A DNA stretch of 36,536 nucleotides from a virus, in IMG/VR virus record IMGVR_UViG_3300031976_000989, positions 1 to 36,536 of that record, one strand, 5' to 3'. Both the position numbers and the translations under genes were made by a program. This document shows, in pieces, positions 2,806 through 29,990 of this stretch (within the stretch, counting starts at the first letter, position 1; every line of letters begins with the position of its first letter). The notes beneath the pieces were generated by a model. The model was not told the origin of the DNA. It did no database searches and was given only the letters and a program-made list of their open reading frames with translations.

Positions 2806-2842
2806 GCCGTTTTTTCTTTAGTGTATAGAGGAGGTTTATAGA

Positions 2843-3043
2843 ATGGCGCATTGGTCATTGCATGATTTGAGAAGAACAGCATGAACCAACTTTTCGACAC
2901 TCGCACCACCGCACATTGGGGAAATAATACTGGGGCATAGATTGCCAGGTGAATGGCAAACTTACGACCAATACCATTACCTTGATGAACAAGCGGAAGC
3001 TTACAAAAAATGGTGGGTTAGGTTGATGGAGATTGTTATTTAG
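2843..3043 (+). pseudogene. Decayed duplicate of the integrase 3' end
   Basis: The translation closely parallels int residues 337-400 from MAHWSLHDLRRTA onward, including the catalytic H/R, GH and Y motifs, and ends in TAG at 3041-3043. One CGA codon has become TGA at 2882-2884, and no 5' part is present. The copy differs from int at many silent sites and at several residues (TYDQYHYLDEQ against TYDRYDYLDEQ), so it derives from a related integrase gene and not from a recent tandem duplication. The two copies form direct repeats around the 1540-2805 gene. Confidence 0.9.
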
Positions 3044-4017: not shown

Positions 4018-4170
4018 TTTACCTCCTATCGATACCGTTATTTTTTGGCGGCACGGTCAAAAAGTTTAACTTGATTCAGCCAGACTGAATTAATCATGTA
4101 AACTTGATTCTCTTTCATTCTATACATGTTGCATAACATTTACCACAAAAAAACTGCGGACTACACAAGA

Positions 4171-4250
4171 CAAACAGGGACAAACAGGGACAAACAGGGA
4201 CAAGCAGGGACAAACAGGGACAAGCAGGGACAAGCAGGGACAAGCAGGGA
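4171..4250. repeat. 10-bp tandem repeat, 8 units
   Basis: Eight perfect-length decamers of CAAACAGGGA or CAAGCAGGGA (only A/G variation at position 4) run without spacers, followed by a decayed unit CAAGTGCAAA. The array lies between the small leftward cassette and the next rightward gene, just upstream of a hairpin with a T-run. The unit length is near one helical turn. Function is unknown; iterons for a DNA-binding protein or simple slipped-strand expansion are both possible. Confidence 0.9.
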
Positions 4251-4267
4251 CAAGTGCAAACAAGTGA

Positions 4268-4290
4268 GGCCGCTTAATTGCGGTTTTTTT
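4268..4290 (+). terminator. Short rho-independent terminator after the repeat array
   Basis: CCGC TTAATT GCGG followed by seven T residues. The stem is short but GC-only. A plus-strand transcript covering the tandem repeat would end here. Confidence 0.55.
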
Positions 4291-4352: not shown

Positions 4353-4586
4353 ATGTCTGGAGAAGTTCTGAAACCAAAGCAAGGTGATCTTTATCTAGCG
4401 GCTAATGGTCGTAAATATTTTGTAGAAGAGATGAGTGAATGGGAGGACGAGGGAGAGTCATATTTTCAGATTGTCTTAGTTGAAGAGGGGTATGAAGATA
4501 GCTTTGATGCACCCTCTGAAGAGGTCATGGATCATGAATGGGAAAGTTATGTAAGGATTCATAAGCTAAAAAAAATTGAAAACTAA
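4353..4586 (+). CDS. Small acidic hypothetical protein
   Basis: This 77-aa, strongly acidic protein (many E/D) begins with MSGEVLKPKQGDLYLAANG, behind TAAGGATAAATA. It is flanked by terminators on both sides, so it is a monocistronic unit. No domain is recognised. The high negative charge is compatible with a DNA mimic or a partner-binding protein, but that is speculation. It lies at the boundary between the cargo block and the leftward early operon. Confidence 0.65.
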   Translation: MSGEVLKPKQGDLYLAANGRKYFVEEMSEWEDEGESYFQIVLVEEGYEDSFDAPSEEVMDHEWESYVRIHKLKKIEN

Positions 4587-4589
4587 AGT

Positions 4590-4617
4590 AAAAAAGCCGC
4601 TTAATCGCGGCTTTTTT
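4590..4617. terminator. Bidirectional rho-independent terminator
   Basis: AAAAAAGCCGC TTAAT CGCGGCTTTTTT is nearly perfectly self-complementary, with T-runs on both strands. It ends the 4353-4586 gene from the left and the minus-strand operon ending at 4638 from the right. Confidence 0.9.
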
Positions 4618-4637: not shown

Positions 4638-5150
4638 TCACTGCATCATAAGAAGTGATTGCTTAAGTTGTATTGGTGGGTTTATGAAAACTGTTGGGCG
4701 TGTACCTGCCGTATCCCGCAATCGATCTTGTTGATCTGGTGTGTGTGATTTCGAAAAATACTTCTCGATGTATTGATCAACGTGGCATTGCTCTTTTGCT
4801 TTCTTGGTGACTGATTTGAAACCATGATCTGTGAAGTGTCCTGCAAGCGCTTCGTTTATTCTTTCCAGCGACTCTTTTGCCGCAAATATTCCTATTTCTA
4901 GTTTTGGGTGGTCGTGTTTTTTGCTGAGAGTGATCCGACGATAACCTTGAATTTCCAAGCCATTGCGTTTGCAATAGGATCGAAAATAAGCCCACGCCTT
5001 GTGCATTTCTTCAATGACAACTTTGTTAGATTTGTCTGTTTGTTTTGCCGATACAAACCATCCAAACAACCATTCGTGGTTCATGTTTTCAGGACGTGAT
5101 TCCATTTCTTTTATGCGTGCTGCTATCGATTCGCTGTGTTGTGTAGTCAT
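4638..5150 (-). CDS. HUH-replicase-like miniature with degenerate HUH motif
   Basis: This 170-aa protein is last in the leftward operon and has a strong GGGGAG ribosome-binding site. Residues 26-134 align by eye with residues 286-421 of the phage's own gpA. HEWLFGWFVSA matches HDGWFLTLTA, WAYFRSYCKRNGLEIQGYR matches WAKFRSWCKRHEIDFYGLR, and YIEKYFSK (Y127, Y131) matches the catalytic YIVKYISK (Y414, Y418). The metal-binding HWH of gpA (361-363) is KLE here (83-85), so the HUH histidines are lost while the two tyrosines remain. It lacks the rest of gpA. It could be a catalytically dead binder of the origin or of gpA, or a divergent nuclease. Confidence 0.65.
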   Translation of the reverse strand: MTTQHSESIAARIKEMESRPENMNHEWLFGWFVSAKQTDKSNKVVIEEMHKAWAYFRSYCKRNGLEIQGYRRITLSKKHDHPKLEIGIFAAKESLERINEALAGHFTDHGFKSVTKKAKEQCHVDQYIEKYFSKSHTPDQQDRLRDTAGTRPTVFINPPIQLKQSLLMMQ

Positions 5151-5183: not shown

Positions 5184-5573
5184 TTAACCTTGCGTTGGTA
5201 AATTCGGCCAGCGTTTTTTTAAGTCTTCAAAAGCCGCACCGCCGTTTTGGATGACGTTGTGCGGTTCGGTGTGCAATGACCAGCGGCCTTTGATGACGGT
5301 AATAGCGGCGTCAAAGTTGAGGGCGTCGAGGTGGCAAAACCAAGCCAGCGGCGCGTGCCAGTTATAACTATTGTAAGTAGACAGCAAGATTTGCGCGGCG
5401 ACTTCTGAGGCGCTGCTGTCATCTTGTGCCAATTTTAGCAAGCGTAAGATCGCGTCTTTGTATTCGGATTCGCTTACTCGGCTTTTGCTTGCGGCTGCAT
5501 CATAAGCTTTTTCTTGTTCTTCAATCGCCGCGCGAAATTCTGGACTCATTGTTGTTGTGAGTTGTTGTTTCAT
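5184..5573 (-). CDS. Conserved phage protein, DUF7673-like
   Basis: This 129-aa soluble protein has a helical N-terminus (residues 10-50) and a conserved-looking core, AAQILLSTYNSYNWHAPLAWF, followed by CHLDALNFDAAITVIKGR. I know this pattern from small proteins of plasmids and phages that carry an uncharacterised DUF. It sits 4 bp downstream of the 5578-5940 gene and 33 bp upstream of the HUH-like gene in the leftward operon. Its role is unknown. Confidence 0.6.
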   Translation of the reverse strand: MKQQLTTTMSPEFRAAIEEQEKAYDAAASKSRVSESEYKDAILRLLKLAQDDSSASEVAAQILLSTYNSYNWHAPLAWFCHLDALNFDAAITVIKGRWSLHTEPHNVIQNGGAAFEDLKKRWPNLPTQG

Positions 5574-5948: not shown

Positions 5949-6086
5949 CTACTTGGTCAGTTTAAGAAGGGCGGTTTTTACGCACGCGGGGCACGTTGCC
6001 AGGTAACGGCTTTTTAAATCTGGTGAGAGATTGATAAAACCGCTTAACGTGGTGCGGCGGATGACGTTATAATCTGATTTCGACAT
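5949..6086 (-). CDS. 45-aa hypothetical protein
   Basis: The short frame reads MSKSDYNVIRRTTLSGF, then a middle part, and ends TCPACVKTALLKLTK. It has a CPAC pair and an AGGAATTAATT ribosome-binding site before ATG. Tight spacing with the next gene (8 bp) supports translation in the leftward operon. A CxxC pair in two neighbouring small proteins is notable, and they might form one composite finger. No family is recognised. Confidence 0.5.
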   Translation of the reverse strand: MSKSDYNVIRRTTLSGFINLSPDLKSRYLATCPACVKTALLKLTK

Positions 6087-6162: not shown

Positions 6163-6429
6163 CTAATGCGTGCTCGTTTTTTTGCTGCGAGATTTTGAAC
6201 GCGCCTTTTCTCTTTCTTCCCATGCGTAGATTTCATCGGCTGACCAAAGATTGCATGTGCCACTTGGGCGGATCGTCGGTTCTGGCAATGGGTTGATTTC
6301 TTTTTGCTGCCAACGGTGAAGTGTGCGAGTCGACAAATTGCCGAGGCGTTCGCAAAGTTGACTAGAGGTTAAATAACCTGATGCTGGCGTGATTGGATTG
6401 TCTTTAGTGTCACGAGATTGAGTGGTCAT
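6163..6429 (-). CDS. AlpA/Cox-like winged-helix regulator, probable excisionase
   Basis: This 88-aa MerR/AlpA-type protein has a winged-helix motif in SGYLTSSQLCERLGNLSTRT, then LHRWQQKE and a basic KARSKSRSKK tail. I chose the ATG at 6427-6429 because AGGAA sits 9 nt before it; an upstream in-frame ATG would give 98 aa but lacks such a site. In P2/HP1 phages the equivalent Cox protein directs excision and represses the lysogeny promoter. It heads the leftward operon, and its promoter carries a CI-type operator. Confidence 0.75.
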   Translation of the reverse strand: MTTQSRDTKDNPITPASGYLTSSQLCERLGNLSTRTLHRWQQKEINPLPEPTIRPSGTCNLWSADEIYAWEEREKARSKSRSKKTSTH

Positions 6430-6460
6430 TCTTAGTGTTCCTGTGTTTTTGATTTGCAAT

Positions 6461-6598: not shown

Positions 6599-7297
6599 TT
6601 AGAGTAGGGACTCTTGCCAGAATACGCGGCCAATAATGCGAATGTCTTTGGCTACTTCGGCGCTTAATTCTTCGTCTGGGTAGTCTTCAGTGTTTTCAGA
6701 CTTAATGCGAAGGCCGTTGAAAGGAAGGCGATATAGATACTTAACTCTTAACATGCCGCCGTGTTCAATGGCGTAAATGCTTCCATCTTTAATTGGTGCT
6801 TTTCGAGTATCGATGGCGATTTGAGCGCCATTTTTCAATACCCTTTCCATTGAGTCGCCAACGACTTTGCAACATGCAACGGAAGAGGCTGGAACTCTTG
6901 CTCTTTCTAGCATTGCTATACTTAGTCGACTTGTTTTTGTTGCACTATCAAGCATGCTTGTAAATCCATTTCCTGCCGCAAACTCAACTTCTTCAAAGAA
7001 TGGTACTTCTACATCATCGTGATGAAGTGGCGTTTGATGTTCGTAAACATCCACTTTGCTGAATCCATCTTGAGAAACATTCGCTTCATGCGAACCATCA
7101 TGTTCACCAGATAGTAACCATCCGGGAGAAGTTTTTAGGAGTTTCGCTAGGTTTAGCAAATTTTGGCCGCTAGGTTTCGTTGCGCCGTGAAGCCATTGCG
7201 ATACGCCACCACTCGACACTCTCATGGCCTTTGTAACGTCCACGCTTTTTAGGCCAAGTTCTTTCATGCGGGATCGGATGCGGTCTGATATTTCCAT
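6599..7297 (-). CDS. cI: CI-like lysogeny repressor with S24 autoprotease domain
   Basis: This 232-aa repressor has an N-terminal helix-turn-helix (residues 5-60, with SVDVTKAMRVSSGGVSQWLHG). It has a linker with the LexA/CI cleavage dipeptide A108-G109 (EFAAGNG), and a C-terminal S24 peptidase domain with catalytic S149 (GDSMER) and K186 (RVKYLYRL). RecA-stimulated self-cleavage would make the prophage SOS-inducible. This differs from P2 itself, whose short C protein lacks the protease. It is divergent from the cro gene, and palindromic operators fill the 80-bp gap. Confidence 0.92.
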   Translation of the reverse strand: MEISDRIRSRMKELGLKSVDVTKAMRVSSGGVSQWLHGATKPSGQNLLNLAKLLKTSPGWLLSGEHDGSHEANVSQDGFSKVDVYEHQTPLHHDDVEVPFFEEVEFAAGNGFTSMLDSATKTSRLSIAMLERARVPASSVACCKVVGDSMERVLKNGAQIAIDTRKAPIKDGSIYAIEHGGMLRVKYLYRLPFNGLRIKSENTEDYPDEELSAEVAKDIRIIGRVFWQESLL

Positions 7298-9056: not shown

Positions 9057-9534
9057 CCACTGGTCAAAAATGTTTGTCTGTCACGAGATAGATCGTGGCG
9101 GCATTGCGGGCGAATCCTTTATGCGTATTTGGTCGCCAGAATACACGCTGATGAAGTTACGCGAACAGCCTTCTTTTTTATCCAGTTCAGTGGAAAAAGC
9201 GCCTTACTCGTTTGATGGTTTTTTTAATCAAGTGCAGCACCCGCTTTGCTGTTTTGAATTAGACATGCTGATGCGCATGGTAAGGGCCGCGATAACGGGC
9301 GAGCTGGACAAATTCTTGTTACTTGAAAAAGGCGTCATGCGGGACGTGATAGGAAGCCACTTTACCCAGTCTTGGACGGTGAACGGTTCGGCTCATGACT
9401 TGGCAAACAAGATGATTATCTTAGAGAGGGTGGCGGGTTTGTTTGATGGGCATTCGGGGTATGACATTGCCATGCGTGATATTGCTCACAGTTTCCGTGC
9501 ATTGGATGGTGTGGAGGCGATAGAGAATGCTTAG
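8965..9534 (+). CDS. Conserved early-region hypothetical protein
   Basis: This 189-aa soluble, helical protein is preceded by AGAGGGTCAGCGCC before the ATG. No motif is recognised. Its stop overlaps the start of the gpA gene by 8 bp (ATGCTTAG), implying translational coupling and a role linked to DNA replication. Two cysteines in HPLCCFELDMLMRMV stand out but form no known motif. Confidence 0.7.
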   Translation: MTAQPKALQKVQSILFTFTAAELNVLRLIGNHWSKMFVCHEIDRGGIAGESFMRIWSPEYTLMKLREQPSFLSSSVEKAPYSFDGFFNQVQHPLCCFELDMLMRMVRAAITGELDKFLLLEKGVMRDVIGSHFTQSWTVNGSAHDLANKMIILERVAGLFDGHSGYDIAMRDIAHSFRALDGVEAIENA

Positions 9535-11233
9535 TTATTGGAGCTATGAAAAAGAAGAGCATACATATTCTGCGCCAGCGGGTTTTATGTGGCCCTATGA
9601 ATGTGAGGAATGGCGAGCAGAGCAGTTGGAAGGTGTAAGCCCTGAGGACGTGCTGATTTTGCGGGCGCGTCTTGAGGAGTTGGACCAAAACGGCGGTTAC
9701 ATTGTCGCGAATGCTTGGCTTAGCTCTGTTGTTGAGCGTTATCGTTTGCTGAACAAAATATCCATCATGCGTCCTGTTGTAGCGAAAGAGGTTAATCGAT
9801 TGGCGGACGAAGATAGCGACGAAGTGGCTATGGCATGGTTGCGTAAGGTGGTAGGGCGTTTGCATTTTTGTGACAAGGTTATCACAGAATTAGACGGTGA
9901 AGGTTTGCATAAGTGGGCCGAGGAAAGACGCTATAAATTTGAATCTAATCTGTATCGAATCTTTATGGAAGAAGGTAGCGATGCAATGCGACGTTGGATT
10001 GATACTAACTTAAAGGATGTTGGTATTGAATTTGATTGCTGGGGTGATACGGACAAAGTAGCAGGAATGACGGCGCGCATGATCACGCCAGAATGGTGGG
10101 TTAGGCAAGCAAAACGCCAGTGGATTGTGGTCGAACAGGTATTGCGCGAGTGCGGCCAAGTGGAGAAATTTAAATCCCCGTATTTGTCAAACTGGGCGCT
10201 GAATAAAGCCGAAAAACAGAAGGAGAATAACAAGGCGTTTTTGGAAGGGTGGGAGGCTGTCAACAATTTGGGGCAGTCTTTCACGCTGGCTCAATTGTCA
10301 GAAAAAGGCGTCTCTAATTCAGATAATCGATTTGCTGAAATGGTCGTCCGTGCCAAAGGCTTGGAAGAAATATCCGAAGAAGAAGGGCACGACGGTTGGT
10401 TTTTAACATTAACCGCCCCGTCTAAATATCATCCTATTTCGAATGGTCGACGTAACCGTAAATTCTGGCGGGCAGATTGCCCCAGCGTGCGGGAAACGCA
10501 TTTATACATGCTGAACGTATGGGCCAAATTTCGTTCTTGGTGTAAACGCCATGAGATTGATTTTTATGGTTTGCGCACGGTAGAGCCGCACCACGACGGC
10601 ACACCGCATTGGCATTTAATGCTGTGGGTTCACCCTGATCATTCACAAGACTTTTTAAGTGCGTTTTCCCGCTATGCATTGGAAGAAGATGGAAACGAAA
10701 AGGGTGCTCAAAAATACCGCGTAAAAGTCAAAAAGATAGATCCCGCGAAAGGTTCGGCGGTGGGTTATATCGTCAAATACATTTCTAAAAACATCCACGG
10801 TAAACACGTAGACACAGACCACGAAACAGGGCGAAGCGGCACCGATGCGGCTAACCGTATTGTGGGTTGGGCGCGCATGAATCGTATTCGTCAATTTCAA
10901 TTTTTGGGCGGGGCGTCTGTCACCGTGTGGCGTGAGTTGCGCCGCCTCGGCAAAGACAAAGCGCCGACTATTTTTAAAGACATTTACCACGCGGCAAACC
11001 GTCCTGATTATGCGGCGTTCGTTAAGTTGATGGGCGGCGTGTTTGCTGGTCGTAACCAAACACTAAAAACCCATTATAGCGATGGAGAAGAGAACCAATA
11101 TGGCGAAATGGTCAAAACCGTTAAAGGCGTGGCGCGAGGGATTGAAGTGGTTATTACCCGAATTTACGAGTGGACGATTCAGCGCAAGGGGGCTGGATCT
11201 TTAGAGGACGACGAAGTCGTCCCTTGGGAGTAA
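9527..11233 (+). CDS. A: gpA replication initiation endonuclease (HUH family)
   Basis: This 568-aa protein is the rolling-circle initiator, which nicks one strand at the phage origin and stays covalently attached. Motifs seen are WFLTLTAPSKYHP (291-303, strand 1), PHHDGTPHWHLMLW (354-367, with metal-binding H361 and H363) and YIVKYISK (414-421, paired tyrosines Y414 and Y418 as in P2 gpA). It is shorter than P2 gpA (about 760 aa), mainly at the N-terminus. In P2-like phages the origin lies inside this gene, and I could not locate the nick site. A miniature relative is encoded at 4638-5150. Confidence 0.93.
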   Translation: MLSYWSYEKEEHTYSAPAGFMWPYECEEWRAEQLEGVSPEDVLILRARLEELDQNGGYIVANAWLSSVVERYRLLNKISIMRPVVAKEVNRLADEDSDEVAMAWLRKVVGRLHFCDKVITELDGEGLHKWAEERRYKFESNLYRIFMEEGSDAMRRWIDTNLKDVGIEFDCWGDTDKVAGMTARMITPEWWVRQAKRQWIVVEQVLRECGQVEKFKSPYLSNWALNKAEKQKENNKAFLEGWEAVNNLGQSFTLAQLSEKGVSNSDNRFAEMVVRAKGLEEISEEEGHDGWFLTLTAPSKYHPISNGRRNRKFWRADCPSVRETHLYMLNVWAKFRSWCKRHEIDFYGLRTVEPHHDGTPHWHLMLWVHPDHSQDFLSAFSRYALEEDGNEKGAQKYRVKVKKIDPAKGSAVGYIVKYISKNIHGKHVDTDHETGRSGTDAANRIVGWARMNRIRQFQFLGGASVTVWRELRRLGKDKAPTIFKDIYHAANRPDYAAFVKLMGGVFAGRNQTLKTHYSDGEENQYGEMVKTVKGVARGIEVVITRIYEWTIQRKGAGSLEDDEVVPWE

Positions 11234-11238
11234 TGACT

Positions 11239-11538
11239 ATGAAAGCATTAGCGGCTAACGGAAAAAAAGACGTGGTAACAGGGAATGAGGTTAAAGCCAT
11301 AAATTGGAACCAATTAGCAGAACTGGGTTTGATGGCTCGAATCAATCAAGAAGTATTGCACCCGCTAGGATTGGCCGTATCTCGTAATCCAGAAACGGGA
11401 AGTAGTGATCATATTTTTGTTTCTGGTGACGGGGTTTATGAATACTCGGCAGGGATAAAAAGCCAGATTACAAAGCTAACCAATGAACAAGTTGAAGAAA
11501 AATTACTCGCCATGATTGGCGGATCAAGAACCGAATAG
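11239..11538 (+). CDS. Conserved phage protein downstream of gpA
   Basis: This 99-aa protein contains NWNQLAELGLMARINQEVLH and PLGLAVSRNPETGSSDHIFV, a pattern I know from uncharacterised phage and prophage proteins. I prefer the ATG at 11239, 8 nt after GGGAG; an ATG two codons upstream overlaps the gpA stop. It is probably in the gpA operon, and a terminator follows its stop. Confidence 0.7.
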   Translation: MKALAANGKKDVVTGNEVKAINWNQLAELGLMARINQEVLHPLGLAVSRNPETGSSDHIFVSGDGVYEYSAGIKSQITKLTNEQVEEKLLAMIGGSRTE

Positions 11539-29679: not shown

Positions 29680-29990
29680 TGCCAAGTATTGATTTGCTCA
29701 TTCAAGATGACGACATAGTGCTATCCAGCATTGGCGAGCCGTTGTTAGTTGAGGGTGTGAACTGCGTTGCGCAAGACATACGCCACATGATCCGCGAAAA
29801 AGGCTACGTGTGGCGGATGATTGGCGAGCGCAACCAAACCACCATTAAGGCGCTATGTACTGAAATTGAAATCGAAGTGGAAAACGATGAGCGAATTTAC
29901 CCAGGTACGGCCAGCGTCAATTTAAGTGGTGAAAAGCTGATTTGTGAAGCGCAAACAGTAGAAGGCGAGCGATTAGTGGTGACGGTATGA
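29679..29990 (+). CDS. Baseplate protein, DUF2590 / gpW-like
   Basis: This 103-aa protein (MPSIDLLIQDDDIVLSSIGE, then CVAQDIRHMIREKGYVWRMI) resembles the DUF2590 family that takes the place of the gpW/gp25-like baseplate wedge in HP1/K139-type phages. The position between tape measure and gpJ supports that. The start overlaps the tape-measure stop (TAATG). Confidence 0.8.
   Translation: MPSIDLLIQDDDIVLSSIGEPLLVEGVNCVAQDIRHMIREKGYVWRMIGERNQTTIKALCTEIEIEVENDERIYPGTASVNLSGEKLICEAQTVEGERLVVTV

Follow-up and report, generated by a model that had tools for sequence, protein, structure and literature searches.

Gene arrangement around ORF170

The window, i.e., the whole stretch of 36,536 nucleotides analysed here, is a P2-like Marinomonas phage (its gpA is a Phage_GPA protein and its nearest hosts are Marinomonas). 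Genes for CI, P22_Cro and Phage_CP76 (CII) flank its switch, and a leftward operon that opens with the CI gene has ORF170 as its final gene. The 170-residue reading frame has the strand and length given in the initial annotation, which also placed it correctly in a lysogeny-side operon, as ORF170 closes the cI operon. The features of the locus are as follows:

4353–4586, plus strand: orf77, a small acidic protein (pI 4.4), convergent with ORF170
4590–4617, minus strand: terminator-like hairpin 3' of ORF170, recognised from the sequence, which could also serve the convergent orf77
4638–5150, minus strand: ORF170 (pseudo-Rep), 170 residues, almost certainly an HUH-dead paralogue of the gpA core, from sequence, profiles and a structural model
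5184–5573, minus strand: orf129, DUF7673 / phrog_6694, immediately upstream of ORF170 in the window and in L001 and L037
5578–5940, minus strand: orf120, zinc-ribbon-like (weak), with a homologue in G054 immediately upstream of ORF170 there
5949–6086, minus strand: orf45, a small conserved protein of the ORF170 operon
6163–6459, minus strand: excisionase/AlpA-type HTH protein (weak MerR; phrog_4745, phrog_1553)
6599–7297, minus strand: CI-type repressor (HTH and peptidase S24), leading the leftward operon
9527–11233, plus strand: gpA, the P2-type rolling-circle initiator (Phage_GPA)

ORF170 has a good ribosome-binding site (GGGGAG, 8 nt 5' of the ATG) and lies 4.4 kb from the gpA gene, on the opposite strand. 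A small acidic protein is encoded tail to tail with ORF170 members in the window, L021 and L036 (10723–10953), and is a possible functional partner. Upstream of orf77 the window carries a 10-bp tandem repeat, GACAA[AG]CAGG (4149–4268), and a 192-bp direct repeat, 85% identical, occupies 1297–1488 and 2831–3022. In this repeat the 3' end of int is duplicated behind orf421, as if cargo had been inserted in the attachment region or beside it.

The order ORF170, small genes and CI, followed across the switch by cro, CII and gpA, is found in the window, L001/G038, L002, G027 and G054. In the five phages with known layout the cI operon ends with ORF170 and adjoins the integrase region, with ORF170 sitting between cI and int in the window and four related prophages. 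The small operon genes are variable (DUF7673, a phrog_29348 protein, an AlpA-type gene, a zinc-ribbon-like protein), and the slot of the window's excisionase/AlpA-type gene is held by a Phage_AlpA gene in relatives. We rejected an origin of the operon from filamentous phages, since the records with its neighbour families are those of tailed-type Vibrio, Shewanella and Pseudomonas phages and not of inoviruses. Three genomes carry gpA and ORF170 in the same prophage, and two members come from genomes without gpA. One of these, in G033, is frameshifted and adjoins AlpA-like and integrase genes in a prophage of another type, and the other, in G026, lies in an integrase-flanked prophage remnant near two TIR-like genes (both read by eye). 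In L039 (10572–12556), likewise read by eye, two TIR-like proteins adjoin an ORF170 member and an integrase.

Relationship of ORF170 to the gpA catalytic core

A two-sequence BLASTP comparison of ORF170 with the window gpA aligned residues 49–80 only (E 3e-5), and ORF170 was recognised by none of Pfam, NCBIfam and PHROGs; it did not reach the Pfam cut-off for Phage_GPA, for which the best E value among family members was 0.084. On these results the resemblance to gpA might have been due to chance. Profile-profile alignment of the seven ORF170 family members with 13 gpA cores using hhalign gave a match probability of 97.8% (E 8.8e-13) over 128 columns, pairing ORF170 residues 8–137 with gpA residues about 271–424. 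The catalytic core of the window gpA spans 271–424 and contains E353, D357, H361, H363, Y414 and Y418. The real pair scored 81.0, compared with 15.9 for reversed gpA and a maximum of 19.8 among 200 column-shuffled decoys, and a profile from the distant ORF170 members alone scored 61.5 against gpA. When a gpA-core HMM was run over 2359 ORFs, all gpA genes came out on top, followed by exactly the seven ORF170 members (E 5e-7 for the window copy, 8e-12 for the best member). Reciprocally, the ORF170-family HMM ranked gpA directly behind the family, and whole-genome searches with the family profile returned, apart from the family, nothing but gpA genes at E ≤ 0.001. The decoys and the reciprocal profiles rule out chance resemblance, and the parallel with the gpA catalytic core drawn in the initial annotation is borne out by a significant profile match. 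Two other short stretches, in G022 and G023, matched the gpA profile at E 0.002–0.003 but were dismissed as chance, being antisense to a ThiC-like gene, and single matches near E 1e-3 were for this reason left out of the evidence.

An AlphaFold2 model of ORF170, computed from three close sequences, had a pLDDT of 77.5 and a pTM of 0.74. Its elements follow the order H-E-H-E-E-H-E-H (helices 9–18, 42–62, 92–108 and 121–133; strands 25–34, 67–75, 82–91 and 111–117), and the gpA core, modelled likewise, repeats this order, differing by an additional short helix and a longer loop behind strand 1. The top viral structural match of both models was the V86 phage Rep O36160 (3e-5 for ORF170, 9e-14 for the gpA core). 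A PDB search with the ORF170 model returned generic ferredoxin-like folds only, none below E 0.001, so support for the Rep-like fold comes from the viral library, from the sequence profiles and from the common topology. The predicted fold of ORF170 is thus Rep-like, and the fold unlike HUH endonucleases that would have spoken against the initial annotation did not emerge. We regard it as almost certain that ORF170 is a dead paralogue of the gpA core.

The HUH place of ORF170 is occupied by KLE (residues 83–85), aligned to the gpA HWH (H361/H363), a replacement that the initial annotation had read correctly. Both histidines are absent in all seven members, with K, V or I and E or V instead, and the equivalents of gpA E353, P354 and D357 have been lost from every member as well. 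With the metal site gone, DNA nicking by ORF170 is, judged from its residues, very unlikely. The tyrosines, said to be kept, are both present in the window copy, and Y127 (gpA Y414) is retained in 7/7 members, but Y131 (gpA Y418) is found in five, with I or K in the other two, which also lack the remainder of the KYxSK segment. Residues common to the ORF170 family and gpA are R12, F29, W53, R57, G69, R71 and Y127, and the conserved residues of ORF170 look to have a structural or DNA-binding role rather than a catalytic one.

The ORF170 family and the gpA-type origin

The family comprises seven distinct members, all from Marinomonas phages or prophages, which came from two phages and from the 50 Marinomonas-family genomes searched. 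No relatives beyond Marinomonas were found in 392 order-level and 369 class-level genomes, phages and plasmids, and ORF170 is missing from most gpA-bearing Marinomonas genomes. Two candidate relatives were rejected: L042 is gpA itself and L053 is a truncated gpA that retains HUH. The shortened gpA gene of L053 (1450–2319), with its HUH intact, lies beside transposase-like reading frames.

The seven members form a single clade (100/100) on a long stem of about 2–4 changes per column, most simply read as the outcome of one origin and a single loss of the metal site. The motif W..FR.[YW]C.R occurs in the ORF170 family and in Marinomonas gpA and not in P2 or HP1, suggesting a local source of ORF170. 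Descent from the phage's own gpA, as first proposed, is favoured by this shared motif and by the restriction to Marinomonas, but a tree of gpA proteins gave no firm position for the ORF170 clade. The family is basic (pI 9.3–10). Over whole genes, dN/dS was 0.19 and 0.21 for full-length pairs and 0.31 for a diverged pair; within the pair P0001/L021 it was 0.40 for residues 1–55 and 0.08 for residues 55–170. As values lay between 0.08 and 0.40 in all comparisons made, ORF170 is under purifying selection and unlikely to be a relic.

In relatives, a P2-like origin lies within the 3' end of gpA and consists of a variable hairpin stem followed by a 27-bp core, a layout shared with the P2 origin (P2 nick at 29892). 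Compared at the gpA 3' ends of L001, L002, L005, L026, L027, L032 and L042, the core, CTTGGACTCGTGTCAATAA[AC]TGTACGG, is identical except at one A/C position, and the gpA-type origin can be named as the hairpin plus CTTGGACTCGTGTCAATAACTGTACGG. The gpA proteins of phages with this core are about 56–94% identical to the window's gpA, so a single origin binder could act on many phages. For the window gpA itself, Reps of marine inoviruses and of PM2 are better matches than is P2-like HP1.

The gpA of the window ends abruptly at the expected origin nick, where the hairpin GACGACGAAGTCGTC and CCTTGG are followed by unrelated sequence (11207–11250). By comparison with a 94%-identical relative (L003 8002–9309), about 1.3 kb is absent from the window, including the origin's right half and a gene for an Ogr/Delta-like zinc-finger protein, and a search of the window showed no second origin core. 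The break may reflect a defective prophage or a deletion made by gpA.

Proposed role of ORF170

Our tentative proposal, to which we give somewhat less than an even chance, is that ORF170 antagonises gpA-type rolling-circle initiation in lysogens. The HUH catalytic domain of gpA would have become a separate gene stripped of its metal site, and its product would no longer nick. From the gene order, ORF170 would be co-produced with CI in the lysogen; it may still bind the gpA-type origin, or else gpA, and would there compete with catalytically active gpA-type initiators. In its own prophage, stray replication would be damped, and phages that enter the cell, or other elements, would be blocked or slowed where they use gpA-type Reps. 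On induction the cI operon would be switched off, the pseudo-Rep diluted and the phage's gpA left to fire. A further-reaching version, in which ORF170 occupies the shared gpA-type origin and so confers a replication-level immunity, second to CI, against P2-like phages and perhaps other gpA-type elements, is more doubtful.

Speaking for the antagonist are the homology to gpA combined with the lost active site, the Rep-like model, purifying selection, the basic character of the family, the conserved gene order, the location in an interval described as an anti-phage hotspot, the origin core common to relatives, the match of the window gpA to inovirus and PM2 Reps, and the existence of short Rep antagonists elsewhere. 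Counted against the antagonist are the loss of Y131 and of the KYxSK segment in two members, a PADLOC run in which no model matched ORF170, and the finding that no origin-like sequence lies near the gene; a decoy origin beside ORF170 was discarded on the same finding. P2 gpA acts mainly in cis, which would blunt an inhibitor working in trans. Members in two gpA-free genomes fit an inhibitor better than a helper, although both copies may be decaying, given the frameshift in one and the location of the other in a prophage remnant. Of the three roles offered in the initial annotation, a dominant-negative origin binder and a superinfection block would fit the evidence, and an obligatory gpA partner is weakened by those two genomes.

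The main rival to an antagonist is a repurposed nucleic-acid binder (of dsDNA, ssDNA or a hairpin) belonging to the cI/AlpA/integrase module, which would regulate transcription or integration/excision independently of gpA. We consider this possible, if somewhat less so than antagonism: ORF170 is located between cI and int and shares its operon with an excisionase/AlpA-type gene, the G033 copy adjoins AlpA-like and integrase genes where gpA is absent, and the long stem branch suggests a changed role. Against this, F29, W53, R57, G69, R71 and Y127 are conserved as in gpA, and we know of no regulator or excisionase of Rep fold. A positive partner of gpA, i.e., a loader, DNA-bending or origin-recognition subunit, would explain the three prophages that carry both genes, but it is improbable given the two gpA-free genomes, the absence of ORF170 from most gpA-bearing Marinomonas genomes, and its position as a repressor-side gene that should be off while gpA works.

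It is equally improbable that ORF170 is a functionless relic, the decaying piece of a foreign gpA. The frameshift in G033 and the loss of the second tyrosine in two copies would agree with decay, but the dN/dS values, the good ribosome-binding site, the single clade, the common conserved residues, the comparable length and the constant location in five phages all argue for a maintained gene. Least probable by far is an active strand-transferase using Y127/Y131 with an alternative metal site: retention of Y127 in all members and of Y131 in most would suit it, but the HUH histidines and adjoining acidic residues are gone from all seven and the second tyrosine from two.

Several known systems resemble the proposed antagonist in part. 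P2-type gpA (PF05840; HUH Y2 Rep, phrog_91) has a core homologous to ORF170 with the same predicted helix/strand order, but at 568–790 residues it is far longer, and ORF170 lacks its HUH histidines, E353/D357 and N- and C-terminal regions and has a short strand-1 loop. RepR' of pIGRK is a negative regulator that lowers copy number fivefold, and pX and A* are named alongside it (PMC6854812). RepR', pX of the filamentous phage M13 and A* of phiX174 are, like ORF170, short initiator forms existing besides a full one; they are in-frame products of internal starts, identical to part of the initiator, whereas ORF170 has a gene of its own, strongly diverged and located in another operon, and its active site is destroyed. 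In addition, RepR is not known to be an HUH protein. Truncated Rep transgenes give resistance to maize streak virus (PMC4148390), where a mutated or truncated HUH Rep acts in trans to stop its cognate virus from replicating; these are engineered and act in plants, whereas ORF170 is natural and its blocking effect is only proposed.

The interval between cI and int is an accessory and anti-phage hotspot in K139 / PhiO18P-like P2-related phages (PMC9122126). ORF170 occupies the same interval of a P2-related marine phage, but its operon is partly conserved and not freely exchanged, and no known defence genes were recognised among the genes tested. BstA, which is prophage-made, suppresses replication of incoming phage DNA and has a DNA self-immunity element (PMC8585504); a prophage-made block on incoming phage replication is likewise what we propose for ORF170. 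A literature search, with most subscription journals outside its scope, found no natural HUH-dead Rep paralogue in phages. Catalytically dead paralogues that act as regulators are well known among kinases and proteases; no description was found of an HUH initiator that occurs naturally with a dead active site, has a gene of its own and is maintained by selection in a phage's lysogeny operon. As the origin sequence can be named, the block hypothesis is testable at once. If ORF170 does block replication, it would provide a repressor-independent immunity that reads the origin common to related phages.
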